Under the pieces are notes generated by a model. That model made no database searches, was not told the DNA's origin, and saw only the letters and a program-made list of their open reading frames with translations. DNA of 64,000 nt. It comes from Corylus avellana. Its lineage: Eukaryota > Streptophyta > Magnoliopsida > Fagales > Betulaceae. The stretch spans positions 46,602,238 through 46,666,237 of the forward strand of contig NC_081542.1 of NCBI RefSeq assembly GCF_901000735.1. The letters are read 5' to 3'. This document shows, one piece after another, positions 21,743 through 64,000 of this stretch. Each line of letters begins with the position of its first letter. The first letter of the stretch is position 1. The translations under genes and the position numbers were made by a program.

Positions 21743-22240
21743 TGTTAAAGTAATGATTAAGTGATTAAGTTTACCTCTTTCTATTAACTTAAGTTGTTGG
21801 GATAACTAGTAATTTAATATAGTATCAGAACCAAACGTCCTCAAATTAAACTTTGATTTCGTCATTTACCTCCCATTTTCAATTAAATATTTCACGTATT
21901 TGGTCTCACCTATTAAAATAGAGTTTGGACCCACACATGAAAGAAAGTGTTAAATTGTTGATTAAATTTTTAAATTTACTTATTCCTATTAGTTTAAGCG
22001 TTTAGGATAAATGGTAATTTAACATGGTATCAAAACCAAAGGTCTTGGGATCGAATCGAACCTTGACTCCGTCAAATTACCTCAATTTAAATTAAATATT
22101 CCATGTGTTGGCCTCACCTATTAAAAAAAAAAAAAAATTGAGTCAACACATAAGGGAGAGTTTTAATGTAATAATTAAGCGATTAAATTTATCTTATTCT
22201 ATCCGCTTAAGCTTTTGGGCAATTGGTAATTTAACATCGT
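21743..22240 (+). mobile_element. TRIM retroelement tandem array (three terminal repeats, two internal regions)
   Basis: Three diverged terminal repeats of about 76 bp (21743-21819, 21948-22024, 22161-22236), each of the form TGTTAA...TAATTTAACA, alternate with internal regions. The first two repeats are followed by degenerate Met-tRNA primer sites (TAGTATCAGAACC at 21820; TGGTATCAAAACC at 22025). Each next repeat is preceded by a purine-rich tract. With no coding sequence and under 0.3 kb per unit, this is the TRIM layout. A decayed fragment continues to about 22290. Confidence 0.75.
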
Positions 22241-22289
22241 ATCATAACTAAATGTTTTGTTAAATTTAACATGGTAATTTAATAAAAAG

Positions 22290-22719: not shown

Positions 22720-23335
22720 ATGGTTTTCATCCAAAAAGCCTTCCTTTTTCTATTATTTGTAGGGTGTGCGCTTATCAGCTCCATTAATTCGCAGCAAACC
22801 TACAGTTTCCCAGTGAATCTAAACTATTGTCAAGATCAATCCAACGAAACCACCAAGGCCTCTTTCGAATCAAACCGCACGGTCCTGTTGAGTTCTTTAT
22901 CCTCTAAAGCTTCCGAAAACAACAGCTTCTACAACGATACCTCTAATGGCGTCTACGGCCTCTTCCTCTGCCGAGGTGATGCTAGCATTGGTACCTGCCA
23001 ACGCTGTGTCATCTACGCGGTTGAATATATCAAACTTCTGTGTCCATCTTCTAAAACTGTCATCATCTGGTTCGATGATTGCATGTTAAGGTACTCCGAT
23101 ACTAATTTCTTTGGAGTGCAACAGATATTTCCAGGGGCGTTCATGTGGAATATCAAGAATACCACTTCACCTGGAACTAATTTTGGAGCAATAGCTCTAA
23201 TGAATGAACTAATAGCAGATGCTTTAGGAACAGAGACGTTGTACAAGACAGGTAAACGGCCTGTGGGTGATGGGTCTGAGGTTAGATATGGGTTGGTGCA
23301 GTGTACTAGAGATATTAATTCTACTTCATGCGGCA
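22720..23335 (+). pseudogene. CRK4 first exon, truncated in the second DUF26 domain
   Basis: Open from ATG 22720: signal peptide (VFIQKAFLFLLFVGC), first DUF26 with CRGDASIGTCQRC, and the start of the second (CTRDINSTSCG). At 23335/23336 homology to other CRKs stops and an unrelated AT-rich segment follows, adding 22 foreign codons before a stop at 23401-23403. CRK intron-1 sequence resumes at about 23765 and runs to the gap. So the end of exon 1 and the start of intron 1 were replaced. Without hinge, helix and kinase it is at best a secreted DUF26 fragment. The partial copy in block C is at 35096-35485. Confidence 0.8.
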
Positions 23336-27784: not shown

Positions 27785-28352
<568 letters not shown>

Positions 28353-28397
28353 TGGTATCAGAGCCTTTTAGGCTAACGCCTTTTTGATCCCTCTGAA

Positions 28398-31300
28398 ATG
28401 GCCTCATCCTCATTCACATTTGTTCCACCAAATGTCACTCCACTAGCCTCCAAACTAGATGGACCCAATTACACAAATTGGACTACCCAATTTTTACCGG
28501 CTCTTCGTACCCATGATCTCTTGGGTATTGTTGATGGCTCAGAGCCTTGTCCTCCGCAATTCATTCTTGATGCGGAAGGAAAGCCCACTTCTTCCATAAG
28601 TCCAGAATATTCTGTCTGGCAGAAGAAAGATCAATTTGTTTTGGCTTGGATAAATGCCACGCTAACTGACAAGGTTCTTTCCACTGTTTACGGATTGGAT
28701 ACCTCACATCAGGTTTGGAATCATTTAGCAACACGTTTTGCTCCTAAATCTAAGTCCCATATCTCTCATTTGAAGAGACAATTGCAAACCATGCAGCAAG
28801 GGACCAAAGGGTGTTCCGATTATCTTTTGGCTGCCAAAAGTTTGGCAGATCAGTTGGCTGCTGCTAGCAAGCCTGTCGATGATGAGGACTTGATTTCCTA
28901 TATTGTGGGAGGTCTCAACTCTTCATACCAGAATTTTATCACTACCTTCAACTTTGTTACTCGTGAGCAATCAATTTCGTTTGCTGATTTTCAAGAAGAG
29001 CTGCTGAATTTTGATCATATGCTTGACATCCATCAGCAAAGTGTCCCTCCTGCAGCCAATCAGATCGCCTTCTTTGCTCAGAAGCCACGGACTCCTCATT
29101 ATAGCAAGAAGACAAAGTTCTCACCACAATATCGTGGTCCACCAAGACAACATATGCCCAGACAACAATTCTCCAAATCAGCCTCTGCTGTAACTTCATC
29201 AAAACATATGCTTGGTAAACCTTCCTCAAGTCATTCCTCACTTTTTTCTGCTAATAGACCTCCATGTCAGATTTGTGGAAAAACAAGTCACCAAGCTTTG
29301 GATTGCTACCATCGTATGGACTTCACTTTTCAAGGACGACATCCACCTTCTCAACTAGCTGCAATGGCTGCCCATACTCATGTTGCTATTGACGAAGAAC
29401 AACCTTGGTACTTGGACAGTGGTGCTAACAATCATGTGACTGGTGATATTGAGAATCTGAGTTTACAGCAGCCTTATACGGGAAATGAAAATGTTACTGT
29501 TGGCAATGGAAATGGGTTGCAGATATCTAATACGGGTTCCTCTCTTCTCATTACTCCCCATACAAAATTGTCTCTTAAAAATATTTTACATTGCCCAAAT
29601 GCTTCCACCAATCTTCTTTCAATTCAGAAATTTTGCAAAGATAACAATTGCTACTTTAAACTTACCTCTTCCTATTTTGTTATAAAGGACATGCTGACCA
29701 AGGAGGTGCTTCTGCAAGGGCCGAGTAGAGCTGGGCTATACCCCATCTTTCTACAAAAATTTCGGAAAAATAAGGCTTCTAGTCAAGCTGCCACTGCTGT
29801 CTCTTTTACTGCTTTATTAGGAGTTTCTGTGCCTCTTCATATCTGGCATCTACGACTGGGACATCCCACATCTGCTGCCATTCAACATCTGCTACGACAC
29901 TCTTTGCTTCAAGTTTCAGGTTCCACAAAAAGTCATTCTTTGTGTGAACCCTGCCAAGTTTCCAAGAGCAAGAAATTGCCCTTCTCAGCTTCTACTCATC
30001 GATCCACTTCTCCACTAGAATTAATTCACTCAGATGTGTGGACTTCTCCCATAGTTTCTGTAGGAGGTTGCAAATACTATGTTTTGTTTGTTGATGATCA
30101 TTCCCGGTTTGCCTGGATGTATCCTCTAAGACAAAAGTCTGATGTATTGCTTTGTTTTATGAAATTTAAGAGTCTTGTTGAAAATTTGTTCTCTTGCAAA
30201 ATTAAACAAATTCAAACAGACAACGGTGGTGAATATATTTCACATGCCTTCACTAAATTTCTTGAAACACATGGTATACTACATCGTCTTACATGTCCGT
30301 ATACATCCGAACAAAACGGTATTGTTGAACGTAAACATAGGCATATCACTGAGACCGGCTTGTCTTTGTTAGCTCAATCTCATCTTTCAAATAAGTATTG
30401 GGTTGATGCTTTCTTAACAGCCATTTACTTGATCAACCGTATGCCTACACCCGTTCTTCATAATAACTCCCCTTATTTCACATTGTTCCAACGTCATCCA
30501 GATTATACCTCTCTTAGGTCCTTTGGTTGTGCTTGCTTCCCATTACTTAGACCATATAATTCTCACAAATTGTCTTTTCGCAGCAAAAAATGCATCTTCT
30601 TGGGTTATAGCACAAATCAAAAAGGATATAGGTGTTTGGATCCAACTTCTCATCGTGTTTACATTTCTAGGCACGTTGTTTTTGATGAAACTAAATTTCC
30701 AGCACAAGATGGGGTCTCAGCTTCCACTCCCCAAACAGCAGCTCTCCCAATCAGCAGCCCATGCCTACCAGGTATTTCTGTTCCTTTAGTTTCTTCTTTT
30801 GATTTAAATACTCCTGCTACTGATTGGGTTCCTCAAATCTCTTCATTGTCTCTATCTCCTGCGGAGGATACTTCACCTCTTTCTTTTGATAATGTGTCAC
30901 CCTCATCCCCACATATCTCATCTACTACCCCTGATGAAGTATTACCTGATAGTTCACTTTCTCAGTCTCCATATGATCATGCTAATTCTTCCACTTCTAG
31001 CCCACCCATTCCTCTGCCTGCTTCTGCTACCCGCATGATCACACGGTCCCAAACAAATTCTTTGAAGCCTAAACAGTTCCCTGACTACAAGCTTTTCTTT
31101 TCCACAAAACATCCACTCACTGCCTTGTCTTCCGTTGTTCTCCCTTCAGAACCTCACACTTACAAACAAGCAGTAGGGAATCCGAATTGGGAATTTGCAA
31201 TGCAAGCTGAGTTTGAGGCTCTTATTGCCAACAAGACCTGGACTTTGTGCCCAAGACCTGCACATAATCGCATCATTCGTAACAAATGGGTTTACAAACT

Positions 31301-32750
31301 TAAGCAGAAATCTGATGGCTCGATTGACAGGTACAAAGCACGACTTGTTGCAAAGGGCTTTGATCAAGTTGATGGCCTTGATTTTACAGAAACTTTTAGT
31401 CCTGTCATTAAGCCTGCAACCGTGCGTCTCATACTTGCTGTAGCTGTGCACTATAATTGGCCCATTCACCAATTAGATGTTTCCAATGCATTTCTACATG
31501 GGCACTTGGAAGAAGAAGTCTTTATGGAACAACCTCAAGGGTTTGAGGATCCTACTCATCCAGAATTTGTTTGTAAACTTCATAAGTCTCTTTATGGTCT
31601 CAAACAAGCTCCTCGAGCTTGGTTCCTTCGCTTGTCTCAAGCATTGTTGGAGCTTGGATTTGTAGGTTCGAGTGTGGACACCTCTTTGTTCTTTTTTCAT
31701 CGTGACTCAGTAAGTGTTTTTCTGTTAGTATACGTTGATGATATCATCGTAACTAGTAATACTCCTACTGCTATTGGTGCTATTATTTCTCAACTCAAAT
31801 GTGAGTTTGCATTAAAAGACCTTGGTGATCTTTCATTTTTCTTGGGGATTCAGGCTAATCGTGACTCCCATGGTCTCCATCTTCATCAAGGAAAATATGT
31901 CACTGATTTGCTTATTCGTGTTAACATGGCTGGAGCCAAACCTGCATCTACCCCTTGTGTTTCAGGCAGTAAACTTTCCAAGTTTCAGGGTGATCCTCTT
32001 TCTGATCCCAAAGAATACCGTCACATTGTTGGTGCTCTTCAATATTGTACATTGACTCGCCCAGATATTGCATATAGTGTTAATCAATTATGCCAGTTTC
32101 TTCATTCACCAACTTCAGTGCATTTGACAGCTGCCAAACGTGTACTTCGGTATCTTAAGGGCACCTTGCATTATGGTTTGTATTATACACAGGGTTCTTT
32201 GAAATTGAATGGCTTTTGTGATTCTGATTGGGCTGGAAGCCCTGATGACAGAAAATCCACGACAGGTTATGCAATATACTTAGGTCCGTGCTTGATTTCT
32301 TGGGCTGCTAAGAAGCAACCTACTGTTGCTCGGTCAAGCACAGAAGCTGAGTATCGTTCTATGGCTCTTACCGTGGCTGAGTTATATTGGATTCGTATGC
32401 TACTCAAAGAAATTCGACTATTCCTATTCTCGGCTCCTTGCTTATGGGTCGACAATATTGGGGCTCTATCTCTCTCCTCCAATCCTGTTTTTCATGCTCG
32501 CACTAAACACATCGAAGTGGATTATCACTTTATTCGAGAGAAAGTGTTTAACAAGGATTTGGTTGCTCGGTATATATCAACTGCAGATCAGCCCTCAGAT
32601 ATTTTTACTAAAGGTCTCACATCAGCTCGTTTCCTCCTATTAAGAGACAAGCTCATGGTTCGTTCCCTCCCCATTAGCTTGAGGGGGGATGTTAACCATA
32701 CTCATTCACTCACTTCTGCCGTTGAAGATAAGAAAGGTATTGAAGGTTAA
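28398..32750 (+). CDS. Copia gag-pol polyprotein, 1,450 aa, intact
   Basis: One open frame, as in many Copia elements. Order and key residues: gag with a UBN2-like region (about 15-220); CCHC knuckle Cys290-Cys293-His298-Cys303; aspartic protease DSG at 340-342; pre-integrase zinc region with HLRLGHP and CEPC; integrase DDE at Asp546, Asp608, Glu644 (35 residues between the last two); reverse transcriptase from about 927 with YVDD at 1112-1115; RNase H with CDSDWAG and SSTEAEY (about 1270-1320) and a TKHIEVDYHF region. All catalytic residues are present. The last 20 codons and stop lie inside the 3' LTR (from 32690), so the polyprotein C-terminus is encoded by LTR sequence. Replication occurs in cytoplasmic particles followed by nuclear integration (family knowledge). 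Confidence 0.96.
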   Translation: MASSSFTFVPPNVTPLASKLDGPNYTNWTTQFLPALRTHDLLGIVDGSEPCPPQFILDAEGKPTSSISPEYSVWQKKDQFVLAWINATLTDKVLSTVYGLDTSHQVWNHLATRFAPKSKSHISHLKRQLQTMQQGTKGCSDYLLAAKSLADQLAAASKPVDDEDLISYIVGGLNSSYQNFITTFNFVTREQSISFADFQEELLNFDHMLDIHQQSVPPAANQIAFFAQKPRTPHYSKKTKFSPQYRGPPRQHMPRQQFSKSASAVTSSKHMLGKPSSSHSSLFSANRPPCQICGKTSHQALDCYHRMDFTFQGRHPPSQLAAMAAHTHVAIDEEQPWYLDSGANNHVTGDIENLSLQQPYTGNENVTVGNGNGLQISNTGSSLLITPHTKLSLKNILHCPNASTNLLSIQKFCKDNNCYFKLTSSYFVIKDMLTKEVLLQGPSRAGLYPIFLQKFRKNKASSQAATAVSFTALLGVSVPLHIWHLRLGHPTSAAIQHLLRHSLLQVSGSTKSHSLCEPCQVSKSKKLPFSASTHRSTSPLELIHSDVWTSPIVSVGGCKYYVLFVDDHSRFAWMYPLRQKSDVLLCFMKFKSLVENLFSCKIKQIQTDNGGEYISHAFTKFLETHGILHRLTCPYTSEQNGIVERKHRHITETGLSLLAQSHLSNKYWVDAFLTAIYLINRMPTPVLHNNSPYFTLFQRHPDYTSLRSFGCACFPLLRPYNSHKLSFRSKKCIFLGYSTNQKGYRCLDPTSHRVYISRHVVFDETKFPAQDGVSASTPQTAALPISSPCLPGISVPLVSSFDLNTPATDWVPQISSLSLSPAEDTSPLSFDNVSPSSPHISSTTPDEVLPDSSLSQSPYDHANSSTSSPPIPLPASATRMITRSQTNSLKPKQFPDYKLFFSTKHPLTALSSVVLPSEPHTYKQAVGNPNWEFAMQAEFEALIANKTWTLCPRPAHNRIIRNKWVYKLKQKSDGSIDRYKARLVAKGFDQVDGLDFTETFSPVIKPATVRLILAVAVHYNWPIHQLDVSNAFLHGHLEEEVFMEQPQGFEDPTHPEFVCKLHKSLYGLKQAPRAWFLRLSQALLELGFVGSSVDTSLFFFHRDSVSVFLLVYVDDIIVTSNTPTAIGAIISQLKCEFALKDLGDLSFFLGIQANRDSHGLHLHQGKYVTDLLIRVNMAGAKPASTPCVSGSKLSKFQGDPLSDPKEYRHIVGALQYCTLTRPDIAYSVNQLCQFLHSPTSVHLTAAKRVLRYLKGTLHYGLYYTQGSLKLNGFCDSDWAGSPDDRKSTTGYAIYLGPCLISWAAKKQPTVARSSTEAEYRSMALTVAELYWIRMLLKEIRLFLFSAPCLWVDNIGALSLSSNPVFHARTKHIEVDYHFIREKVFNKDLVARYISTADQPSDIFTKGLTSARFLLLRDKLMVRSLPISLRGDVNHTHSLTSAVEDKKGIEG

Positions 32751-33035
32751 ATGTTGTGTGACTTTTGAGTTACATAACAGTAGCTGGATTAAATGAGTTT
32801 GTAACATAAGACATTTGAAAATCATAACAGTAGCTGGATTAAAGAGTGGGTAACTGAAGGAAGTTGTTTATGATGTTTAAAGTTTAAATTGTAACAGTTA
32901 GTACAACCACTTTATTGTATAGGCTTTTCAATTCAAATGTAACTGATGTTATGTGTAATTGTGTATAAATACTCAAGGAATACAAGTGATCTGGTATCAT
33001 AAAAAATACCAGAGTTTCAAATTTGTTTTCTAACT
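32690..33035 (+). repeat. Copia 3' LTR (346 bp)
   Basis: Appears identical to 28007-28352 by direct comparison, implying recent insertion or conversion. It overlaps the end of the gag-pol ORF by 61 bp. Confidence 0.93.
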
Positions 33036-34118: not shown

Positions 34119-34616
34119 TGTTAAAGTAATGATTAAGTGATTAAGTTTACCTCTTTCTATTAACTTAAGTTGTTGGGATAACTAGTAATTTAATATAGTA
34201 TCAGAACCAAACGTCCTCAAATTAAACTTTGATTTCGTCATTTACCTCCCATTTTCAATTAAATATTTCACGTATTTGGTCTCACCTATTAAAATAGAGT
34301 TTGGACCCACACATGAAAGAAAGTGTTAAATTGTTGATTAAATTTTTAAATTTACTTATTCCTATTAGTTTAAGCGTTTAGGATAAATGGTGATTTAACA
34401 TGGTATCAAAACCAAAGGTCTTGAGATCGAATCGAACCTTGACTCCGTCAAATTACCTCAATTTAAATTAAATATTCCATGTGTTGGCCTCACCTATTAA
34501 AAAAAAAAAAAAATTGAGCCAACACATAAGGGAGAGTTTTAAAGTAATAATTAAGCGATTAAATTTATCTTATTCTATCCGCTTAAGCTTTTGGGCAATT
34601 GGTAATTTAACATCGT
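34119..34616 (+). mobile_element. TRIM tandem array, second copy
   Basis: Collinear with 21743-22240: three TRIM terminal repeats and two internal segments with a few SNPs. No coding sequence. Confidence 0.7.
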
Positions 34617-35095
34617 ATCAGAACTAAATGTTTTGTTAAATTTATCATGGTAATTTAATAAAAAGGAGTGCCGGGTCTTATGATATGAGTTTTGAACAGA
34701 AATGTAAAATGGCAAGCTCTAGCCGGCGTTGAAGAATATAATTAGAGGCTTTTTATTCAGGAGGGTAAGCTAGTGGGCTGACTTTTAGGTATGTGTTGGT
34801 GCCATTTTTGAAGCCTCTACGAAGTCATGTTGAATGGAAACATTCAACCTTTTCTTATTGAGTCTCTCATGATCAAAGCTGATCAGTTCAATATTAACTG
34901 GCCGGTCGTGGGAATTAGGTGAAGCATGTAGCCCAGATAATTAAGTCTGCAAGTTGAACTAGTACACCAATTAAGGTTGTCCAATAACATTATTTTGTTT
35001 TCTCATACACGAGAAGATTATTTTATTGTATAGATTATCTGCTATAAGCATATGTTCATGGACCAATCTTCTAATATTGAAGTCTGGGAGGGATG

Positions 35096-35485: not shown

Positions 35486-35585
35486 NNNNNNNNNNNNNNN
35501 NNNNNNNNNNNNNNNNNNNNNNNNNNNNNNNNNNNNNNNNNNNNNNNNNNNNNNNNNNNNNNNNNNNNNNNNNNNNNNNNNNNNN
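35486..35585. other. Assembly gap (100 N)
   Basis: Exactly 100 N. Sequence jumps from CRK exon 1 to CRK intron 5, so exons 2-5 of any joined gene are absent. Confidence 0.99.
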
Positions 35586-36408: not shown

Positions 36409-38231
36409 TGCTTTGTAGAAGAGTAAGAGTGTATATTTTGAAATGTTAAACTACTTTGGGACATGATTCTGTAGTCTGTACCATGTAGTATATTAAATTC
36501 GTTGTTCCTGTTTGTATGCAGCTACAACTATTTCTTTGAGCATAATATTGTCCTTTATAATCAAATGGAACATTTTTCTGCCCATTTCGGTAGTAGTAGT
36601 TGTGTTAGAAAATTAATTAAGAGAAATACTAGGAGTATTAACTCTTTTATTAACGGAAATTTATTAAACTGATATACAGCTCATTTATTCGAGAAAAACA
36701 AAATAATTAATTAAAAGAAATGTAACGAGTACCAATGAATAAGCTACATATCAATTTAGTACGCCTATATTAGTAAAAGAGTTAATACTCCTAGTATTTC
36801 TTATTAATTAAATCATTAAATTAATTATTTATATCTATTTAAATTTTTAAAATTACAAACTAATGATTTAATATTGTATCCAAACAAAATCCAGCCCCTA
36901 TTTCACTGCACCCCTCCCTTCAACGCTGACTCCAGGTCTACCTCCGGCCACCAACATTGCCCCTCATGCTCGTGCATCCGAACGTTTTCTTTCTCTCTCT
37001 TTATTGGAAAAGGAAAATTTTCTCTGATTTTCTGGGAGAAGTTGCAGGGAAAGTGGAGGTTTAGTTGGTGGATATAAAGGGGACAAAGCTTTGTCCCCTT
37101 TATATCCACACATTCTTAAGAATGTGTGGTTAACGGGACAAGTAAGTAACGCTTTCCTTTTTCCTTTTTTCTTTTTTCTTTTTTCTTTTTTCTTTTCTCT
37201 TTTTCTTTTTCTTTTTTTCTCTTGCTCTTTTTTCTTTTCAATGCGGCTGACTTTATTATCTTTAGCTTTAGGTGGGGCCTGGCTGGCAGGACTAATTTTC
37301 GTCCTAATAGGGTTGATTAGTATTAATTATCTAGTGGGATAATACTATGAACTATTTATTCATGAAGAGTTTGAAATGGCGTGCATGAGATATAAATGTG
37401 AACATATTTGTTTGTTTGGTAGCAAAACTTACAGATTACAATCACCGTACTGGCAGCCTTGCTTCAAACCACACCCCTCATGTCATCCAAATTTTGGTAG
37501 CAAAACCATTTATGACGATTTAGCTCTCCCGTCTACTAGGCTAATTTGGCTATTGAGTTTTTCTTTCTGCGAAAAAAATGTAAAATTAGTCTTTGTGGTT
37601 TTAGGTTTTGACAAATAACTCATCAATGTTTAAAACTTGATTAAACAAGACTCCATAGGATAAGCAAGAATAAAAAAATAAAAACAAATGGGCCATGTTG
37701 GTAAAAAAGTTGACAGAATCTGTTAATGAGGCATATCAGTACTAATAATCACATTGTGACATATGTCACATCAATACTATTTTTTTTCATTTTTATATTA
37801 TTTGTTTATATATATTTTTTATTATAAGTTATGTGACATGATTTTATTGGTTCGGACGTAGTACACCAAAAGAAACCGTCACGTTTTGACGGAATTTGAC
37901 AGCATGGCATATATATATATATATATATATTGTGCATACCTCATGGATCTCTGAGTACATTTGGTTAACACAAATAACTTATTGCAAATCAAGTAAACCA
38001 TAAGAATTAATTGCATTTTTTCCTTTATATTATGATGATCAAAACTGCGAATTTATGAATTATCTTCATGAAAATATATAAAGAAGCCTTCTAACAATGT
38101 GATCACAATCCAAATATATATGTGGTTGTTTAGATCTAAAGCCATTTTACTCAACACAAGTGTAGGTGTTCAACCAGAAGATGAAGTGATTGAGACTACT
38201 TTAATTAGTTTCAAGGTAATAGATGCGAAGA
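36409..38231. other. Intergenic region between the CRK tail and TBL
   Basis: No gene supported. It holds the CRK 3' UTR, two overlapping perfect palindromes (37068-37129), a CT-rich run with short poly-T (37150-37240) and a TA microsatellite near 37910-37930. From 37408 onward it matches block E in inverted orientation (to 64000). Confidence 0.6.
37068..37129. repeat. Two overlapping perfect palindromes (42 bp and 24 bp)
   Basis: 37068-37109 is a 42-bp perfect palindrome centred on AGCT at 37088/37089 (each arm carries GTGGATATAAAGGGGACAAAG). 37106-37129 is a 24-bp perfect palindrome centred at 37117/37118 (CCACACATTCTT per arm). They share the bases CCAC. No spacer in either. Confidence 0.95.
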
Positions 38232-39936
38232 TGTTAAAGTTTTGATTAAATAATTAAATTTACCTCTTCCTATTATTTTAAGCTTTTAGGATAAGTGGTA
38301 ATTTAACATATCAGAGCCAAATGTCCTAAGATTGAACATTGACTTCGTCAATTCACCCCCGTTTAAATTAAATATTTCACATGTTTGACCCCACCTATTA
38401 AATGGGAGTTTGAACCCACACATGAAGGGAAGTGTTAATCTCTGGCTCTCTCCCCTGCGCCCTCAGTCTCTCTCTCTCTCTCTCTGTGCAGAAACAAAGA
38501 TGGGGTTTGGAACTCAGAGGTGTTGTTCCATCCTTGTTACCTTCTTGGTGATTTACACAGTACCTCTTTGTTTAGCAAAGAATAGAAGAAGCAATGTGAA
38601 GTGGAGAAAACGTCACTGCAACTTGTATGAAGGAACTTGGGTGAAGGATGATTCTTACCCTCTCTATGACTCTCTCACATGCCCTCACATCCGCAAGGAG
38701 TTTGACTGCCAAAAGTACGGCCGCCCTGATAAACTCTACCTCAAGTATAGATGGCAGCCAAATGAATGTGATTTGCCCAGATTTGATGGTCAAGATTTTC
38801 TACAGAGGCTTAGGGGGAAGAAGATCATGTTTATTGGGGACTCCGTTACTCTCAACCAGTGGCAATCTCTACTATGCTTGCTTCATGCAGATGTGCCTGA
38901 TTCCAAAGTCATAGAGCAGATAAATGTGTCAATTTCTACCACCATCTTCCTGGACTATGGAGTGTCAGTTATTCTGTTTAATTCTCACTACTTGGTAGAC
39001 ATCGAAGAAGAACAAGTTGGTCGAGTTCTAAAGCTTGATTCTCTGAAAAATGGCGCCCAGTGGAAAGAGATGGATGTTCTGGTTTTCAACACTTGGCTTT
39101 GGTGGGACCGTAGAGGACCTAAGCAACCATGGGACTATGTTGAAGATGAGAATAAGGTTGTCCAGGACATGGATAGGATGGTTGCTTTTCGCAAAGGTTT
39201 GACAACCTGGGCCAACTGGGTTGATGCAGATGTGGATCCGACAAAAACTAGAGTCATTTTTCAAGGAATTTCTCCTTCTCATTACAATGGGGCTGATTGG
39301 GGCGAGCCAGAAGTGACAAACTGCTCAAAGGAGAGAGAGCCAATAAGCGGGTCAACATTCCCAGGTGGTTTGCCACAAGCAGCATTGGTAGTGAAAGATG
39401 TGTTAAGCAGATTAAGGAAACCTGTTCATCTGCTTGATATAACAAATCTCTCACAACTAAGAAAAGATGCACATCCTTCCTCTTACAATGGATTCAAGGG
39501 CATGGACTGCACTCATTGGTGTGTTGCTGGGGTTCCAGACACCTGGAATCAACTTTTGTATCTGCTGCTCTGATAGCTAATTGAATTTCTTGAATACACA
39601 AACACAAAGAAAGAGCTAATTAGCCATGAAAGCAAAAGTTCTCAAATAGGAAATTTCCTTGATTTTTAACATATTCATTGATTTGATTGTTATTGAAAAC
39701 AATCATAGGGCTAGATGACAATGTAGTAGTTGGGATGGAACATATGAAACTTCTTTTCAAATCCAAAAAAAAAAATCATCTTCCATTTAAATTAAATATT
39801 TTACGTATTGAGCACCACCTATTAAAAGTGAGTTTGAATCCACACGTGAAGAGGAATATTAAAGTTATCATGATTAAATAATTAAATTTACATCTTTATA
39901 TCATGTTAAACTTTTTAGATAAATGGTAATTTAACA
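38232..39936 (+). mobile_element. TRIM element carrying a TBL gene (retrogene capture candidate)
   Basis: A 77-bp TRIM terminal repeat (38232-38308) is followed by a primer-site remnant TATCAGAGCC (38309-38318), internal sequence, a purine tract and a TGTTAA repeat start (38433). Then come the intronless TBL gene, an 11-A tract (39765-39775), TRIM internal sequence from about 39782, a purine tract and an 80-bp terminal repeat (39857-39936). A possible target duplication is AAAGC: it follows the 3' repeat here (39937-39941) and precedes the 5' repeat in the block E copy, but the other two flanks differ. Confidence 0.6.
38500..39573 (+). CDS. TRICHOME BIREFRINGENCE-LIKE protein, intronless, 357 aa
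   Basis: PMR5N/PC-esterase protein, a family of Golgi polysaccharide O-acetyltransferases acting on xylan, mannan or pectin (family knowledge; the substrate is not predictable). Residues 1-26 form a signal peptide or anchor. The PMR5N Cys-rich domain ([30 protein letters not shown]) follows. The GDS motif is at 113-115 and the DCTHWC motif gives the catalytic Asp336/His339, so the triad is complete. Length is near the family norm. The frame is open without introns, whereas TBL genes generally have several introns, suggesting a processed copy. ATG 38500 is preferred over 38410, because 38410 lies in TRIM sequence and 38500 starts the signal peptide. A CT-repeat leader precedes it. Confidence 0.88.
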
Positions 39937-41356
39937 AAAGCTTTTCTTAAGTTTCCGAGTAGATACCTAAAAGCTTAACTAAATTCCGGTCGGCCATGAA
40001 GCCTGGCCACTAGTAAAACCTTTTTCTTGAATTCTTGGTTACTTTCTCTATAGATAGCCTTTTCATGACTACGTACAATCAAAATATTGTGTGTAGAGTC
40101 ATACGTGTGGAAGGATCTCCTTGTTTCACAGGCATGCACGATGACAATTGACAAAACAAGTCTTCAATGGCAAAAGTCTTTTAATATATGAATTCATGCC
40201 AAATATATACAAGCCTTGATCACTTCCTTTTCCGTATGGTTGCCCTTTTCTTTTTTCTTATTTTTATTTTTATTTTTATTTTTTATGGCATATTGTATTC
40301 ATAATATATCTTATTTGAGTGCATCTCCTTGTATTTTACTTCATTGAATCATATAGTTTCTTGGACTTGTAGATCTAATCAAGCGTGCACATTTAGATTG
40401 GAAAAGGCGCTACAAGATCATAAGAGGCATTGGTCGAGGGATTCTCTATCTTCATGAAGATTCTCGACTTCGTATTATTCATCGTGATCTTAAGGCTAGC
40501 AACATTCTTTCAGATATAGAAATAAATCCAAAAATTTCAGATTTTGGCATGGCAAAACTATTTTTATTGAATCAAACTCAAGGAAATACAAGTAGAATTG
40601 TTGGAACCCAATAAGTATCGTAGTAAGGAAGAGCTGATGTTTACTTTCTACCTATTATTTTAACTCATTTCGAAAAACAAAGGGAAAATAGCAATTTTCA
40701 AGCTAAGTATGGAAAGCTCTATTACCATATCCAAATTAAACTAATATTATTGATGTTGACATGCAGTGGATGTATGGCTCAAGAGTATGTAATGTATGGA
40801 AAATTCTCTGCAAAGTCTGATGTCTTCACTTTTGGTGTATTAATATTGGAAATAATGAGTGGATAGAAGAACAATTGCTTCCGAAATGAAGAGAATGTGA
40901 AGGATCTTCTAAGCTATGTAAATACAATCATACTTGGAAACATTTCCCTTTACCTATTTATGTGAGGCAACAAATTAACACATAGGGAATATCATATTTA
41001 TAATAGAACTTTATATCTAATACTGTGTTTAATTTGCCCATCAAAATCATATATTATAGGCGTGGAAAAACTGGACAGAGGGGACCGCTAAAAATATTGT
41101 GGATCCAACAATAAGGCTAGGCTCAGAAATTGAAATTATGAGATGCATCCATATTGGGTTACTATGTATTCAAGAAAATGTAGCTGATCGACGAACCATG
41201 GATTCAGTGGTTCTCAATCTTAATAGCTACTCCATCACTCTTCCAGTATCCTCGCAGCCTGCACTTTTTATATACAGTAACATTGACTCAGAGACATCTC
41301 AATGGGAGCAGAGCACACTGATTAGAGAGTCAAATGAAATATGTAAAGGCTACTGA
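39937..41356 (+). pseudogene. CRK kinase pseudogene with an internally inverted exon 4
   Basis: The 5' half of exon 4 lies on the minus strand (39937 to about 40090). Its 3' half (about 40140-40236, IYEFMPN) and the later exons are on plus. Exon 5 is 40373-40610 ([15 protein letters not shown]), but its donor GT is now AT (AATAAGT). Exon 6 is 40767-40917 with an in-frame TAG after MSG. Exon 7 is 41060-41356 with a premature TGA. No extracellular exon is present. It cannot encode a kinase. The block E copy is 59850-61352. Confidence 0.85.
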
Positions 41357-41654
41357 TCTGCCCAAGTCTTAGCAATTGAGGCTACAATTAATTTTGAAAT
41401 GTTAAACTTCTTTGGTCCATGATTCTGTAGAAAAAAATCTCTTTCATCACGTTGTCCTTTAATCCAATTGAAAATTTTCAGCCCGTTTGGTCGTAGTAGT
41501 CTTATATAATGAATGTGAGATTACTACTAATTCAATTGAAAATATGAAACGGGTATTAGATAGGTTAATTAGTAGTAGCTTTAACCCACTTGCAACAATA
41601 TAGCTATCTTTAAATGAAATGTTTTGTCTATGATTCTTTATTGATAATAAAAAT
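41357..41654. other. Intergenic sequence downstream of the CRK pseudogene
   Basis: Non-coding, matching 59565-59850 in reverse. Confidence 0.5.
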
Positions 41655-41682
41655 NNNNNNNNNNNNNNNNNNNNNNNNNNNN
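41655..41682. other. Small sequence gap (28 N)
   Basis: 28 N of apparently estimated size, at a place where the block E copy has a long homopolymer (about 59552-59575). A poly-A read failure is likely. Confidence 0.95.
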
Positions 41683-42091
41683 AAAAAACATCACCATGAT
41701 AAGTTTGCATCATTTGTTATGTGAGAGTATGTTCAAACCCTATTTGTTTGTATTCGGACATGTCCAAGTCCTATTCACTCGGACTGCCTGAGCACCGGTC
41801 TGGACAAATGGAGTCGAGACAGGATCTTACATGGAGCTGCCCGATTGAACAAGTCTCCTTAAAACAAAAAACAAAAAATCTAAATGGTAAAGATGACAAA
41901 AAGTAGGAACAACACGACATTGACCAAGCCATATTTAAGGTTCGGTTTGGAAAAAGATACTTCCGGCAGTTCCTTAGTTTAGTCTCAACTAATCCGACCC
42001 ACCATCATAAATTGAGAAAAGATCAGTTGAATTCTCCGCAGATAAACCAAAAATTAATTCACTAACTAATATATAATCATAACTATATATG
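41683..42091. other. Non-coding segment before the gap
   Basis: Matches 59131-59545 reversed, at lower identity than the TBL region. No gene supported. Confidence 0.5.
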
Positions 42092-42191
42092 NNNNNNNNN
42101 NNNNNNNNNNNNNNNNNNNNNNNNNNNNNNNNNNNNNNNNNNNNNNNNNNNNNNNNNNNNNNNNNNNNNNNNNNNNNNNNNNNNNNNNNNN
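42092..42191. other. Assembly gap (100 N)
   Basis: Exactly 100 N. The exact inverted repeat of 6619-13741 begins immediately after it. Confidence 0.99.
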
Positions 42192-42220
42192 AAAACTTTG
42201 AATTTTTATATTTTACTTTT

Positions 42221-42565
42221 TGGAAAAAATTCACATCACCCTAAGAAGTTTCAGGTGTTTTTCAATTTGAACCTCAAAGTTTAAAAATTGGCAATGTACT
42301 TCCCTAATGTTTCAAAAATTTTCAATTTAAACTTTTCGTTACTAAATTCCATCAAATTGGACAGAAATCTATAAAATTACGTAATTACACTTGAGCTTTT
42401 ATTTTTTTATTTTTTTTTAAGTTCCGTCAAATTTAACGGAAATTAGTAACGGAATGTTTAAATTAAAATTTTTTGAAACATTAGGGAAATACATTGCCAA
42501 TTTTTAAACATCGGAGTTCAAAATAAAAAACCACTTAAACTTATGGGATAAAGTGGATTTTTCCT
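42221..42565. mobile_element. Foldback/MITE-like element, mirror copy
   Basis: Exact reverse copy of 13368-13712. Confidence 0.6.
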
Positions 42566-42935
42566 TTTTTTGGTTTTTAGTGTAGAGAGTTAAGAGTCTG
42601 GGTGGACTTGCAACCACCGCTCAAGAACTGCCTCTAGTGTAAAATATGAAGATGAAGTCCTCCTTTGGGGACAGTAGTCATTTACTTTTTATGTGTGAAT
42701 CTGTTTTCTATAATTTGGTTTCTATGCTAATTTGATGTTGTTTCTCTTCGTATGCAAATATATTTACAGCAAAATCTATTTCAAGAATAGAAGTAGAATA
42801 TGGTTATAGAAGCACTATAATTCCTACCCTGTAGTATTTGCAGGAAAATGATGCATCCCCTTATAGGAAGGAAATTCTGTAATCAAAATGGAAAATTCAT
42901 GTTTTTAAGTGGATGGATGGAACACCATACTCCAG

Positions 42936-43815
42936 TTAATCTTTTGACTGGATAGAAGCACCTGTTGAATATTGATCAGATGCGAAAAATCCTACCCTGG
43001 CCGCAGTTGTTGAAGTTTGATCAGATAAGATAGATCTAGCTAAAGAAAAAGGAGGTGGTAATGGACGATGAAGATTTATCGAGCTGCTTCCAAGCATGAG
43101 GACGACCATTGACATTGTAGGTCTTTCATTGGGATCTTCCTGAACACATAATAATGCGATATGGATCAATCTCAGAGGCTGATTTCGAGGACCAGTGTCG
43201 ACTAAGGTCTGATCTATCAACTCCAGTCCTTTGTCTTCATTCCATAGTCGCCATGCCTGTTTTATATTGTTTCTAATTATATCAATGCAGTAAACAAAAA
43301 CTTCATATCTGAACTAAACATACAGATGAAAATAAAAAAAGATTTACATGTGGGAGAAGGCTTTCTGCATGCTCTGGATGATAGAAGCCCACATTCTTTT
43401 TCCCACTTATGATTTCTAGCATTAAAACTCTAAAGCTGTAAACATCGGACTTTACTGAAAATAGCCCTTCCATTGCAGACCCTGGCGCCATGTATCCACT
43501 ATTGGAGAAAATATTATGATTTATGGCTTCAATCAGTTGAAGAAATGAAACCAGAACTGTTCTAGATGTGATATACTATCATTATGAGGAAAAGTGACAT
43601 CCAAACAGGATTTGCGAAACAAAGAAGTTCAAAAGGAATGTACCACCCAACACATTTACACAAGAGGAATGACTTACTATGTACCCACGACTCTGTTAGT
43701 GTTGGCTTCTATTTGATTGCAGTCAAAAATCCTAGCAGTGCCAAAATCTGATATCTTTGGATTCATGTCATCATCTAACAATACATTGCTTACTTTCATA
43801 TCTCTATGGATGATT
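42936..43815 (-). pseudogene. CRK kinase C-terminal pseudogene, mirror copy
   Basis: Exact reverse copy of 12118-12997: partial exon 5, exon 6 with the APG-for-APE change, and exon 7. Confidence 0.8.
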
Positions 43816-44528
43816 TTGCTTACTCCAAAGCCAGCAAGGTGTATGGTCTCGTGCAATGTAGAGGCGACATGTCTGCCAGTAATTGTGCCAACTGCACAAA
43901 GGCTGCCATTGCAGAAGCCTTGAGCGAGTGTCCGAAGTGCAAAGAGGTTTTGGTCTGGTTTGCTTGGTGTTTTCTACGGTATTCGAACGAGAGCTTTTTT
44001 GGGATTATGGAACAGGGTTTAGTGGGCATCACCAACGACACTGATTTCGACGATCCTTATGTGATTTCAAAAGGGCTTTCCTTCATGGGTGGTCTTGCTT
44101 CCACGGCTCCTAATCAGCCTTGTATGTTCCAGAAAGCGGTGCTGGATGTCGGACAAAGTGGGCAGAGGTATGGTGTGGCTCAGTGCAGGCTAGACATCAG
44201 TAGGGGTGACTGTGGCGTGTGCTTGGATGCTCAGTTGGTGACGTCTCGAACAACAATTGGAAACAAAAGATGGTGGGAAACATACGGTCCCAGTTGTTTT
44301 ATGTGGTACCATGACTACCAGTTTTACTTCAACATCTCCATCTCTGCAAGTGAAGGTGACTTCCGCGGCGGATACTTTAGCTGTTGTTTTTCTTCTATAA
44401 TGTGGATGATACGTATAATTAATGTCTTTCCATCGGAAACTATTGCAGGTTCTAGAAGAGCCTCTTCATATGGAAGAGTTTCAATTGGAGTAACTATTGC
44501 AGTGCTAGCACTTCTGGTAATGGTCTAG
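43813..44528 (+). pseudogene. PDLP/CRRSP-like DUF26 fragment, mirror copy
   Basis: Exact reverse copy of 11405-12120. Two DUF26 domains and a C-terminal helix, no signal peptide. Read-through from the adjoining antisense CRK sequence supplies the ATG at 43806. Confidence 0.7.
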
Positions 44529-45819
44529 CTAGATTGTTGTCCCGGCCTGTCGGCAGTCGCCATGGGTATAGGAGATGAAGGTGAAGGATTTGCAAACAGC
44601 AATTTTTTCATTTCGTTTGTTTCATTTTCTATTTGTAGGCAGTGAAAATTAATTATAAGCTTTTAACAATCGTTTTATGAATTCGGCAGCGGTATGATAA
44701 TATATACGTTATATAAGTACCTTATATTGAATAGCTTCGTCTCCTTGATTACATTTGTCTTCTTTAATTATTTATTTATTATACTAATATACATTGTTAC
44801 ATTACTTGTATTTGATGCTTTAAGATTTTCATTCTCATTAACTTAAAGGGTTAATTACCTTTACTCCCTCAAATTGGCACTCATGTACAAATAGCTCTCC
44901 CGAGCTACCACTTGTTGCATTGAACCTACTTGAACTACCATTCATTAGCAAAACCCCCTCTCTATTAGTCAAAGTTGCCATAAAAAGTAGAATGATCAAT
45001 TAGAAACTAAATTTATATACATACTTTTAATATATATTTTTTTAAAAAAAAGCTTTGATTTGAAGGTTGCATTATCGCGTAGGTTTAATTTTGGTGCTAC
45101 ACCCTCGTTACAATTTATCATCATGACTAGATTAGCCTTTGAAATTGATAAAATATGTCTCTTGATGATGATACTTATTATCAGCAATGACATCTAGGTT
45201 TAGGTTCTTAATTAAGCTATTTGCAATGACCTGATCAAACATTATTAACTACAACATTAAGGTTGTTGTTGATAACCAATATATATTGACAGAGCAATTA
45301 CAACGACTTATTAATTAACAATGACTAGACGTAGTTAAAAGTCATTAGTGACGACCTCAAACATTATCAGCAATAACAATAAGGTTATTGTTGATAACCA
45401 ATATATATTGACAGAACAACTGCGACGACTTATTTGCAATAACCAGCCTAAGATGATATCAACGAGGCTGAAAATGGTGATTCCGCCAACTATGATTAGG
45501 CCTTTTCACCTCGACATCGTTTGCCTTGTATTAATAAGTAAGAATTAATTTGCCCTGTAATTTTTTCTCTCAAGTTGACCAGCCTGAGATGAACTTCCGA
45601 CCGGTATTAATCCTACAAATATTTTCAAATTATAAGTAAAAAATGACTTCCTTTTCAATTCCTTATATATGTGTCTAGATTTATGTTTTATGGTCTTGGG
45701 CCATTAGATGAACCGTAGCTGAGATTGCTTGAAGATATCTAATCTTGGGGCATCAGATGAATCATAGCGAGTGAAATTTATATACAAACATGCTTATTAT
45801 AGCCCCCTTCCACGAAACA
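44529..45819. other. Intergenic, mirror of 10114-11404
   Basis: Includes the two-copy repeat at 45228-45438. No gene. Confidence 0.55.
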
Positions 45820-48951
<3,132 letters not shown>

Positions 48952-48987
48952 TGTCCCTCCTAGACTTTTAACAGAAAATTGGTCCAT

Positions 48988-49314
48988 TAACATATGGTTG
49001 TAGCAGATAATCTATATATACAAGAAAACAATCTTCTCATGTATGAGAAAACAAGTAAAATAATGTTATTGGAGACAACCTCGCTGGAGTTCTTTGGGCT
49101 ACCTATTAGGTAGATACTTTTATCACTCATAAACGCAATGTGGAAATTTGCGTCCGATTGCTGTGACGCCTAATGTCAGCTAGTCAATTATCACCGCAGT
49201 AAGGTCAAAACTACTTCTCAGAAAAATTATAAAAAAAAAAAAAAAAAAAAAGGTCAAAACTACACCCATTGACTGAGTTATATTTTACTCCTCCTGATAC
49301 CCCATATATATTAT
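48988..49314 (-). promoter_or_regulatory. CRK1 promoter, mirror copy
   Basis: Contains the reverse of the three W-boxes and the TATATATA box (49013-49020). Unlike block A, sequence continues upstream past 49314 without a gap. Confidence 0.5.
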
Positions 49315-59130: not shown

Positions 59131-59849
59131 CATATATAGTTATGATTATATATTAGTTTGTGAATTAATTTTTGGTTTATCTGCGGAGAATTCATCTGAT
59201 CTTTTCTCAAGTTATGATGGTGGGTCGGATTAGTTGAGACTAAATTAAGGAACTGCCGGAAGTATCTTATTCCAAACCAAACCTTAAATATGGCTTGGTC
59301 AATATCGTGTTATTCCTACTTTTTGTCATCTTTACAATTTAGATTTTTTGTTTTTGTTTTTGTTTTTTGTTTTAAGGAGATCTGTTCAATCGGGCAGCTC
59401 CCTGTAAGATCCTGTCTCGACTCCATTTGTCCGGACCGGTGCTTAGGCAGTCTAAGTGAATAGGACTTGCACATGTCCGAATACGAACAAATGGGGTTTA
59501 AACATGCTCTCACATAACAAATGATGCAAACTTATCACCCCATTTGGTGATTTTTTTTTTTTTTTTTTTTTTTTTCTATTATCAATAAAGAATCATAGAC
59601 AAAACATTTCATTTAAAGATAGGTATATTGTTGCAAGTGGGTTAAAGCTACTACTAATTAACCTAGCTAATACCCGTTTCATATTTTCAATTGATCTAAT
59701 TAGTAGTAATCTCACATTCATTATATAAGACTACTACGACCAAAACGGGCTGAAAATTTTCAATTGGATTAAAGGACAACGTGATCAAAGAGATTTTTTT
59801 CTACAGAATCATGGACCAAAGAAGTTTAACATTTCAAAATTCATTGTAG

Positions 59850-61352
59850 CTTCAACGAAGCACTAGCACGGGTAGACCTCAATAATTGAAGCCTCAATTG
59901 CTAAGACTTGGGCAGATCAGTTGCCTTTAGATATTTCATTTGACTCTGTAATCAGTGTGCTTTGCTCCCATTGAGATGTTGTCTTTGAGTCGATGTTACT
60001 GTGTATAAAAAGTGCAGGCTGCGAGGGTACTGGAAGATCAGTGAGGAGTAGCTATTAAGATTGAGAACCACTGAATCCATGGTTGGTCTATCAGCTACAT
60101 TTTCTTGAATACATAGTAACCCAATATGGAATTATGGATGCTCTCATAATTTCAATTTATGAGCCTAGCCTTATTGTTGGATCCACAATATTTGTAACGG
60201 TGATCTGTCCAGTTTTTCCATGCCTATAATATATGATTTTGATGGGCAAATTAAACACAACATTAGACATAAAGTTCTATTATAAATATGATATTCCCTA
60301 TGTGTTAATTTGCTGCGTCACAGAAATAGGTAAAGGGAAATGTTTCCAAGTATGATTGTACTTACATAGCTTAGAAGATCCTCCACATTCTCTCCATTTC
60401 GGAAGCAATTGTTCTTTTGTCCACTCATTATTTCCAATATTAAATACCAAAACTGAAGACATTAGACTTTGTAGAGAATTTTCCATACATTGCATACTCT
60501 TGAGCCATATATCCACTGCATGTCAACATTAATAATATTAGTTTAATTTGGATATGGTAATAGAGCTTTCCATACTTAGCTTCAAAATTGCTACTTTCCC
60601 TCTGTTTTTCGAAATGAGTTAAATAATAGGTAGAAAGTAAACATCAGCTCTTCCTTACTACGATACTTACTGGGTTCCAACAATTCTACTTGTATTTCCT
60701 TGAGTTTGATTCAATAAAAATAGGTTTTTCATGCTAAAATCTGAAATTTTTAGATTCATTTCTACATCTAAAAGAATGTTGCTAGCCTGAAGATCACGAT
60801 GAATAATACGAAGTCGAGAATCTTTACGAAGGTAGAGAATCCCTCAAGCAATGCCTCTTATGATCTTGTAGTGCCTTCCCCAATCTAAATGTGCATGCTT
60901 GATTGGATGTACAAGTCCAAGAAACTATATGATTCAATGAAGTAAATTAAATACAAGGAGGTGCACTCAAATAAGATATATTATGAATACAATATGCGAT
61001 AAAAAATTAAAAAATTAAAATTAAAATTAAAAAAAGGAAAAAGAAAAGGGCAACCATATTGAAAAGGAAGTGATCAAGGATTGCATATATTTGGCATGAA
61101 TTCATATATTAAAAGACTTTCGCCATTGAAGACTTGTTTTGTCAATTGTCATCGTGCATGCCTGTGAAACAAGGAGATCCTTCCACACGTATGACCCCAC
61201 ACTATTTTGATTGTACGTAGTCATGAAAATGCTGTCTCTAGAGAAAGTAACCATGACTTTAAGAAAAAGGTTTTATTAGTGGCCAGGTTTCATGGCCGAC
61301 CGGAATTTAGTGAAGCTTTTAGGTACCTACTCGGAAACTTATGAGAAACTTC
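59850..61352 (-). pseudogene. CRK kinase pseudogene, block E copy
   Basis: Reverse relative of 39937-41356 with extra damage. Exon 7 is about 60225-59865 with frameshifts. Exon 6 is about 60520-60370. Exon 5 is about 60905-60670, with CGA to TGA before GILYL, HRDLQ for HRDLK and SDFS for SDFG. The 3' half of exon 4 lies near 61125-61040, and its 5' half is inverted at about 61230-61350. It has no catalytic capacity. Confidence 0.8.
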
Positions 61353-61714
61353 TGTTAAATTATTATTTATTCAAAAAGCTTAACATGATAGCAAGATGTA
61401 AATTTAATTATTTAATCATGATAATTTTAATACTCCCCCTCACGTATGGGTTCAAACTCACTTTTAATAGGTGGTAGCCCATACGTAGAATATTTAATTT
61501 AAATGGAGGATTTTTTTTTTTTTGGACTTGAAAAGAAGTTTCATAAGTTCCATCCCAACTACTACATTGTCATCTAGCCCTATGATTGTTTTCAATAACA
61601 ATCAAATCAATGAATATGTTAAAAATCAAGGAAATTTCCTATTTGAGAACTTTTGCTTTCATGGCTAATTAGCTCTTTCTTTGTGTTTGTGTATTCAAGA
61701 AATTCAATTAGCTA

Positions 61715-62785
61715 TCAGAGCAGCAGATACAAAAGTTGATTCCAGGTGTCTGGAACCCCAGCAACACACCAATGAGTGCAGTCCATGCCCTTGAATCCAT
61801 TGTAAGAGGAAGGATGTGCATCTTTTCTTAGTTGTGAGAGATTTGTTATATCAAGCAGATGAACAGGTTTCCTTAATCTGCTTAACACATCTTTCACTAC
61901 CAATGCTGCTTGTGGCAAACCACCTGGGAATGTTGACCCGCTTATTGGCTCTCTCTCCTTTGAGCAGTTTGTCACTTCTGGCTCGCCCCAATCAGCCCCA
62001 TTGTAATGAGAAGGAGAAATTCCTTGAAAAATGACTCTAGTTTTTGTCGGATCCACATCTGCATCAACCCAGTTGGCCCAGGTTGTCAAACCTTTGCGAA
62101 AAGCAACCATCCTATCCATGTCCTGGACAACCTTATTCTCATCTTCAACATAGTCCCATGGTTGCTTAGGTCCTCTACGGTCCCACCAAAGCCAAGTGTT
62201 GAAAACCAGAACATCCATCTCTTTCCACTGGGCGCCATTTTTCAGAGAATCAAGCTTTAGAACTCGACCAACTTGTTCTTCTTCGATGTCTACCAAGTAG
62301 TGAGAATTAAACAGAATAACTGACACTCCATAGTCCAGGAAGATGGTGGTAGAAATTGACACATTTATCTGCTCTATGACTTTGGAATCAGGCACATCTG
62401 CATGAAGCAAGCATAGTAGAGATTGCCACTGGTTGAGAGTAACGGAGTCCCCAATAAACATGATCTTCTTCCCCCTAAGCCTCTGTAGAAAATCTTGACC
62501 ATCAAATCTGGGCAAATCACATTCATTTGGCTGCCATCTATACTTGAGGTAGAGTTTATCAGGGCGGCCGTACTTTTGGCAGTCAAACTCCTTGCGGATG
62601 TGAGGGCATGTGAGAGAGTCATAGAGAGGGTAAGAATCATCCTTCACCCAAGTTCCTTCATACAAGTTGCAGTGACGTTTTCTCCACTTCACATTGCTTC
62701 TTCTATTCTTTGCTAAACAAAGAGGTGTATAAATCACCAAGAAGGCAACAAGGATGGAACAACACCTCTGAGTTCCAAACCCCAT
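61715..62785 (-). CDS. TRICHOME BIREFRINGENCE-LIKE protein, second copy, 356 aa
   Basis: Same protein as 38500-39573 apart from one substitution and one missing residue in the signal peptide ([11 protein letters not shown] versus [12 protein letters not shown]). GDS and DCTHWC motifs are present, with no introns. ATG 62785 is used; the frame is also open from 62890, but that part is GA repeat and TRIM-derived. The coding nucleotides appear identical to the other copy from the residue after the indel to the stop. Predicted Golgi polysaccharide O-acetyltransferase. Confidence 0.88.
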
Positions 62786-62796
62786 CTTTGTTTCTG

Positions 62797-62799
<3 letters not shown>

Positions 62800-62854
<55 letters not shown>

Positions 62855-63020
62855 GCAGGGGGAGAGCCAGAGACTAACATTTCCCCTCACGTGTGGGTTT
62901 AAATTCTCTTTTAATAGGTGAGGTCAAAGAGAGAGAGAGGGTGCAGGGGGAGAGCCAGAGACTAACATTTCCCCTCACGTGTGGGTTTAAATTCTCTTTT
63001 AATAGGTGAGGTCAAACATA
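62800..63020. repeat. (GA)n tract and ~84-bp tandem duplication in the TBL leader
   Basis: About 20 GA units at 62808-62850 are followed by two copies of a unit containing GGGTGCAGGGGGAGAGCC and the TRIM purine tract/CCCCTCACGTGTGGG segment. Block D has one copy and a short CT run. Confidence 0.75.
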
Positions 63021-63181
63021 TAGAATATTTAATTTAAATGAGAGGGGGGAGGAGGGGTGAATTGACGGAATCAATGTTCGTTCTCAGGACTTTTGGCTCT
63101 GATATGTTAAATTACTACTTATCCCAAAAGCTTAAGATAATAGGAAGAGGTAAATTTAATCATTTAATCATAACTTTAACA

Positions 63182-63507
63182 GCTTTGCATCTATTACCTT
63201 GAAACTAATTAAAGAAGTCTCATTCACTTCATCTTCTAGTTGAACACCTACACTTGTGTTGAGTAAAATGGCTTTAGATCTAAACAACCATTCACATATA
63301 TTTGGATTGTGAAAGACATTATAGAATCATAATTCACATTGTTAGAAGGCTTCTTTATATATTTTCATGAAGATAATTCGTAAATTCGCAGTTTTGATCA
63401 TCATAATATATGAAGGAAAAAATGCAATTAATTCTCATGGTTTACTTGATTTGCAATAAGTTATTTGTGGTAACCAAATGTACTCAAAGATCCATAAGGT
63501 ATATATG

Positions 63508-63559
<52 letters not shown>

Positions 63560-64000
63560 ATGCCGTCAAATTCCATCAAAACGTGACAGTTTCTTTTGGT
63601 GTACTATGTCCGAGCCAATAAAATCATGTCACGTAACTTATAATAAAAAAATGAAAAAAATTAGTATTGATGTGACATATGTCACAATGTGATTATTAGT
63701 ATTGATATGCCACATTACCGGATTCTGTCAACTTTTTTACCAACATAGCCCATTTGTTTTTATTTTTTTATTCTTGCATATCCTATGGAGTCTTGTTTAA
63801 TCAAGTTTCAAACCTCGATGAGTTATTTGTCCAAACCTCAAATCATAAAGACTAATTTTACATTTTTTTCCCTAAAAGAAAAACTCAATAACCAAATTAG
63901 CCTATTATAGGGGAGAGCTAAATCGTCATAAATGGTACTGTGGTTTGAAGCAAGGCTGCTAGTTGATTGTAATCTGTAAGTTTTGCTACCAAACAAACAA
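63182..64000. other. Intergenic region upstream of TBL copy 2
   Basis: Inverted relative of 37408-38231 with SNPs. TA microsatellite at 63510-63556. No gene. Confidence 0.5.

Follow-up and report, generated by a model that had tools for sequence, protein, structure and literature searches.

An intron-free TBL38-type gene between TRIM sequences in Corylus avellana: a candidate case of mRNA capture by a miniature LTR retroelement

A TBL38-type gene without introns lies between two pieces of TRIM sequence in the genome of Corylus avellana. We describe the anatomy of this composite, its relatives, its duplicate, and the explanations that compete for its origin. The analysis covers one stretch of DNA, here called the window: 64,000 nucleotides of contig NC_081542.1 (positions 46,602,238 to 46,666,237, forward strand). 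Our preferred reading, to which we give a probability of about 0.6, is that of one composite miniature LTR retroelement: a TRIM would have captured a TBL38 mRNA and integrated once; the resulting locus was later duplicated, and its gene core was probably converted.

Anatomy of the composite

Read in one orientation, the composite runs LTR, internal region, TBL, A11, internal region, LTR, over a total of 1705 bp (Table 1). Its outer LTR ends fall at exactly 38232 and 39936, which agrees to the base with the bounds given in a preliminary description of this DNA. That description had named, upstream of the gene, an LTR, a primer-site remnant and internal sequence and, downstream, internal sequence and an LTR; all of these were located. 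The intronless TBL coding sequence with a 3' A-tract that it placed between them is present as one open frame (38500-39573) followed by A11 (39765-39775). Both TRIM pieces are on the sense strand of the TBL gene.

The downstream TRIM piece matches the upstream one at 86% over 66 nt of the LTR and at 80% over 80 nt of the internal piece. The 5' LTR has the form TGTT...AACA; the 3' LTR begins with TA and ends with AACA in both copies of the composite. By inspection, PBS- and PPT-like sequences adjoin the LTRs, as expected of a TRIM. We take TATCAGAGCC in the internal region to be a PBS remnant, and GAAGGGAAG (38424-38432) is presumably the PPT. The remnant looks degraded, being without the leading TGG that unit 2 of a nearby array has.

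In both copies, the A-tract directly abuts TRIM internal sequence. Runs of at least 11 A occur 13 times on the + strand of the whole 64,000-nt window and runs of at least 11 T occur 12 times, so that an A-run at the 3' border of the TBL part is unlikely by chance but not extraordinary. With no introns and a 3' A-tract, the TBL part bears the hallmarks of a processed retrogene, and the frame, uninterrupted between two outer LTRs, bears that of a TRIM-captured gene.

A profile built from four copies in the window matches 13 TRIM pieces there, composites and seeds included, and no ORF of at least 170 aa overlaps these pieces, the TBL frames excepted. Besides the composites, the family forms two tandem arrays that sit in blocks 99.4% identical to each other.

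Table 1. Positions in the window of the composite (copy 1), its duplicate (copy 2) and the related TRIM arrays
Feature	Position	Strand
Tandem TRIM array, same family as composite, LTR-int-LTR-int-LTR	21743..22259	+
Duplicate tandem TRIM array, same family, three LTRs and two internal regions	34119-34635	
Candidate target-site duplication, upstream: GAAGA; AAAGC in copy 2	38227..38231	.
TRIM 5' LTR, 77 bp, TGTT...AACA; TRIM/SMART-like	38232..38308	+
TRIM internal region, putative PBS remnant to putative PPT	38309..38432	+
TGTTAA, the initial 6 bp of another LTR; TRIM stops, TBL part starts	38433..38438	+
TBL 5' leader, CT-rich, 61 nt; start defined by the TRIM border alone	38439..38499	+
TBL38-type CDS, 357 codons + stop, no intron, PMR5N + PC-Esterase	38500..39573	+
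1180-bp tract with no differences from copy 2, interpreted as gene conversion	38562..39741	+
TBL 3' UTR	39574..39764	+
A11 tract, closing the TBL part like a poly(A) tail; A13 in copy 2	39765..39775	+
3' half of TRIM internal region	39776..39856	+
TRIM 3' LTR, 80 bp, 3-bp insertion, begins TA	39857..39936	+
Candidate target-site duplication, downstream: AAAGC; GAAGT in copy 2	39937..39941	.
Segmental duplicate of 37408-42091, inverted, includes flanks outside the composite, reaches the window's end	59131..64000	-
Second TRIM-TBL-TRIM composite (copy 2); LTRs 63105-63181 and 61353-61432	61353..63181	-
TBL CDS of copy 2, 356 codons + stop, one codon fewer	61715..62785	-

The TBL gene and its relatives

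The 357-codon frame contains PMR5N (9.1e-23) and PC-Esterase (3.4e-89) domains, with nearly the whole of both profiles covered, and its protein matches the ESKIMO1 structure 6CCI at 5.5e-66. The catalytic motifs earlier described as intact are indeed so, with GDS at residues 113-115 and DxxH at 336-339; these motifs and the two domains are common to the present protein, to TBL38-type TBL proteins and to ESKIMO1. In an alignment of 14 sequences, for which we chose 13 relatives from the best 120 of 2715 protein matches, the protein aligns to TBL38 proteins without large internal loss and is 81% identical to TBL38 of Morella rubra, 77% to that of Carya, and 74 and 73% to those of Quercus. By family, the enzyme would be a cell-wall polysaccharide O-acetyltransferase, and it is presumably used.

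No parent TBL emerged from the protein search: among the best 120 of the 2715 matches, no cluster other than the window's own (P0001, 11 members) exceeds 80% identity, Morella standing at 81% in the alignment. Since no cluster among the listed matches is closer than Morella, the parent lies inside the 90% cluster P0001, has been lost, or is absent from the database. The leader ends in CTCTCTGTGCAG before AAACAAAG-ATG; this end also resembles a 3' splice site, which is odd for a spliced mRNA.

Whereas TBL genes usually have several exons, the present copy is an uninterrupted frame. In rose, Table 1 of the published account gives introns in 48 of 50 TBLs and lists none for RcTBL15 (154 aa) and RcTBL27 (351 aa), although its text states 1 to 6. 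In potato, the excerpted account gives most of 72 TBLs 3-6 exons, with StTBL39 as the single-exon member, for which its authors suggest retrotransposition. Full-length intron-free TBLs are uncommon in rose and potato, but not unique. RcTBL27 could be a relative that argues against capture.

A duplicate with an identical gene core

Self-comparison of the window revealed a second TRIM-TBL-TRIM arrangement, which the preliminary description had missed. The shared block extends past the composite by 824 bp on its upstream side and by 2155 bp on its downstream side, and at one end it stops at the limit of the window. Because homology runs past both outer LTRs, copy 2 is a DNA duplicate, and there is accordingly no sign that the loaded element transposed again. 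The junctions are common to both copies, so the composite predates the duplication. The further TRIM-TBL-TRIM copies envisaged earlier are thus represented by one in the window, but it occupies the same site as copy 1 and has no separate target duplication.

Renewed transposition of the loaded element was considered as the source of the copies and is ruled out for both, the flanks outside the LTRs being common to the two. Copy 2 also has a short tandem duplication, with a unit of ~86-88 bp, across its 5' TRIM-TBL junction (62842-63015).

Divergence between the copies is unevenly distributed. Over flanks and TRIM parts together, the 3252 aligned sites include 208 differences (6.4%), a count that leaves out the leader and CDS start (38438-38561), where 7 of 121 sites differ, and the stretch 39742-39774, with two substitutions. 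The TRIM parts alone differ more (23/206 and 20/161), and 34 of these 43 differences are transitions, which is what methylation of the DNA would lead one to expect. Within the gene core (38562-39741), there are 0 differences in 1180 sites; the next longest identical run is 74.

All silent sites from codon 22 onward are identical between the copies. Because the core takes in silent sites and 3' UTR, protein selection alone cannot explain its identity. Purifying selection as the sole cause is ruled out, with 168 bp of 3' UTR identical along with the silent sites. Gene conversion is the simplest reading; an assembly effect, in which both copies were given a shared consensus, is possible but less likely.

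One insertion or two

The 5-mers just outside the LTRs are GAAGA and AAAGC in copy 1, and AAAGC and GAAGT in copy 2. If either copy's base is taken at each position, both sides fit one ancestral 5-mer. Among flank 5-mer pairs, 1125 of 273760 fit equally well (0.4%, a rate and not a strict probability, since the pairs overlap), and among lengths 3-10, length 5 alone fits at the LTR ends. Neither copy has a perfect target duplication; 3 of 5 bases match in each, and the test rests on one site.

Within each copy, the outer LTRs differ at 12 of 77 sites, and each 5' LTR is 9/77 from its nearest array LTR, closer than to its supposed 3' partner. Eight substituted columns are fixed for different states in the 5' and 3' LTRs; the array LTRs mostly have the 5' state in five of them and the 3' state in one, with two undecided, and at the 3-bp insertion, too, most of them agree with the 5' LTRs. 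The 3' LTR therefore looks more diverged and is possibly older.

In an unconstrained tree of the nine LTRs, the outer LTRs did not come together, and even the 5' LTRs of the two copies stayed apart. With the LTRs of copies 1 and 2 paired, 15 topologies were compared. The top-ranked one unites the outer LTRs, without significance; so do two others among the best five, but not those ranked second and third. None of the 15 falls outside the AU 95% set and none is rejected, in a test that used 7 of the 9 LTRs, those of the second array being dropped as near-duplicates. As for an empty site in the window, none appeared: the joined 400-bp flanks matched at length only the two filled loci, the other matches being 83 bp or shorter and many of them simple repeats.

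Scaffold and neighborhood

Two stretches of 7123 bp (6619-13741 and 42192-49314) are 100% identical and inverted, and each adjoins a 100-N gap. They are probably two overlapping contig ends left unmerged. The scaffold is therefore imperfect, and the distance and order of the two composite copies are uncertain.

By eye, the region 6940-56494 contains repeated ectodomain frames and kinase pieces, several of them broken, that resemble a cluster of cysteine-rich (DUF26-like) receptor kinases. A Copia-type element lies at 28007-33035; its single open frame encodes 1450 aa, its two 346-bp LTRs are identical, and it has the primer site TGGTATCAGAGCC and the target duplication GGATT; the duplicate block 16699-23109 shows its empty site near 20660, so this insertion is recent. 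Upstream of copy 1, at 37068-37109, is a perfect 42-bp palindrome of two 21-nt arms with no spacer.

Origin of the composite

We infer a cDNA origin and a single integration, which may have come about as follows. With proteins from an autonomous element, minus-strand synthesis on TRIM RNA would have broken off in the internal region and continued on a spliced TBL38 mRNA, which it entered at the poly(A) end. Once this mRNA had been copied as far as the 5' end, synthesis would have returned to TRIM RNA at a point just within U3, following TGTTAA. Because of these two strand jumps, the 3' half of the internal region would come to stand on both sides of the gene. One integration next to receptor-kinase genes, with a 5-bp target duplication, would have followed; later, the locus and its flanks were duplicated as DNA, and the TBL core of the two copies would have been homogenised by gene conversion.

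Template switching between LTR elements and mRNA has been described, in the excerpted text of an earlier study (PMC5408686). A two-jump capture would explain why the parts have this orientation, why the A-tract meets TRIM sequence, why introns are absent and why the internal 3' half occurs twice. The preliminary description had proposed capture by template switching, and this stands in part: the sense orientation, the order of parts and the ancestral 5-mer fit agree with it, but the outer LTRs did not come out clearly as sisters, and the protein and window searches yielded neither a parent nor an empty site.

In the main rival, two TRIMs of one family inserted separately on either side of a TBL retrogene, or of a native gene from which the introns disappeared, and each lost the end facing the gene by deletion. 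The family is locally frequent, with two tandem arrays (mutual duplicates) besides the two composites in 64 kb, and a small grass LTR element is reported, in the part of the source available, to prefer genes as targets (PMC3281118). The lack of an intact target duplication, the closeness of the 5' LTRs to array LTRs rather than to the 3' LTRs, and the more diverged look of the 3' LTR also favor independent insertions. Yet two truncations would have to end at the gene borders, both insertions would have to point the same way, and the 5-mers would have to fit by chance (0.4%); the best paired-copy LTR tree also groups the outer LTRs, if not significantly; we regard this history as somewhat unlikely. 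Same-family arrays lie in the window, at scaffold distances of ~3.6 and 16 kb from copy 1, and for this reason a LINE-type insertion of TBL cDNA into an existing tandem TRIM array is a further rival. The excerpted survey (PMC4717578) records tandem TRIMs in 35 of 43 plant genomes, and such an insertion would explain why internal sequence is repeated and why a target duplication lies on the outside. It would also have to remove most of the middle LTR and the start of the second internal region, a target deletion that we estimate at ~115 bp, and no direct repeat is visible by eye around the TBL part; we hold it very unlikely.

The scaffold raises another alternative, in which the two loci represent divergent haplotypes or chimeric contigs, with a collapsed consensus as the source of the identical core. 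The inverted 7123-bp stretch, with its resemblance to an unmerged contig overlap, points that way, as does the position of copy 1 on a short piece, with 28 N inside, between the 100-N gaps 35486-35585 and 42092-42191. However, each composite has its own diverged flanks between N gaps, no N gap in the window comes closer to copy 2 than ~17 kb, and haplotype status would alter the copy number, not the anatomy. Even as a partial explanation, an assembly effect seems highly improbable.

Frame preservation and possible function

The TBL frame is intact in both copies, and the catalytic motifs are kept. At sites invariant in the other 13 aligned sequences, it has three changes (S117T, Y203D and Y287F); by comparison, each of the 13 relatives has 1-9 such changes. 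In a substitution-only simulation of neutral evolution (2000 trials each), the frame survived in proportions of 0.227, 0.058 and 0.026 at 3, 6 and 8% per lineage. Such low survival makes selection on the frame likely but not proven, and the frame looks constrained, as judged from its sequence. A TATTAAA motif within TRIM internal sequence begins 43 nt before the TBL part and has a putative role, and a TRIM ATG (38422), in frame with the TBL start in copy 1, is a putative start.

A bolder reading is that a TRIM of less than 300 bp captured a complete acetyltransferase mRNA, and that the resulting TRIM-promoted retrogene replaced the intron-bearing TBL38 of the lineage and was kept by selection and conversion. 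We consider it unlikely. TRIMs are non-coding, and the published survey, as excerpted, has them as gene carriers via exon fragments only (PMC4717578). Capture of a whole open enzyme gene by a TRIM, as in our preferred reading, would show that the smallest LTR elements can give rise to retrogenes and provide both ends of a new gene, and that duplicates of such genes can remain alike even as the TE sequence around them erodes.

Comparison with known systems

Bs1 of maize is reportedly a larger element than the present composite. The two are alike in the proposed copying of mRNA into an LTR element by template switching; Bs1, in the excerpted account, carries parts of three genes, whereas the carrier here is miniature and non-coding (PMC5408686). 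In build, and going by its description, the grass element SMART (FRetro129) is like the present TRIM: it has 292 bp, 85-bp LTRs, a 122-bp internal region and TGT...ACA ends, against a 77-bp LTR and a 124-bp internal region here. Homologues of FRetro129 are given for grasses only in the text available (PMC3281118).

The closest parallels are the gene-carrying TRIMs of Gao et al. 2016, whose survey, in the part available, reports 30 TRIM elements with exon-only gene fragments and one earlier Arabidopsis TRIM case (PMC4717578). These elements (GmaRetroS15 and others) measure 1172-1449 bp, have 5-bp TSDs and mostly occur in several copies; in the present case, the target duplication has decayed, and there is no sign of another round of transposition. 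Among the titles and abstract openings listed from an open-licence library, none concerns a TRIM with a complete gene. Host exons without introns, placed between the LTRs of a miniature element, are common to the published elements and ours. In that survey, as far as it is excerpted, the cargo consists of fragments, whereas the 1705 bp of the present composite include an entire open frame, together with UTR and A-tract; TRIM capture of exon fragments is already published, and that of a complete open gene would be new.
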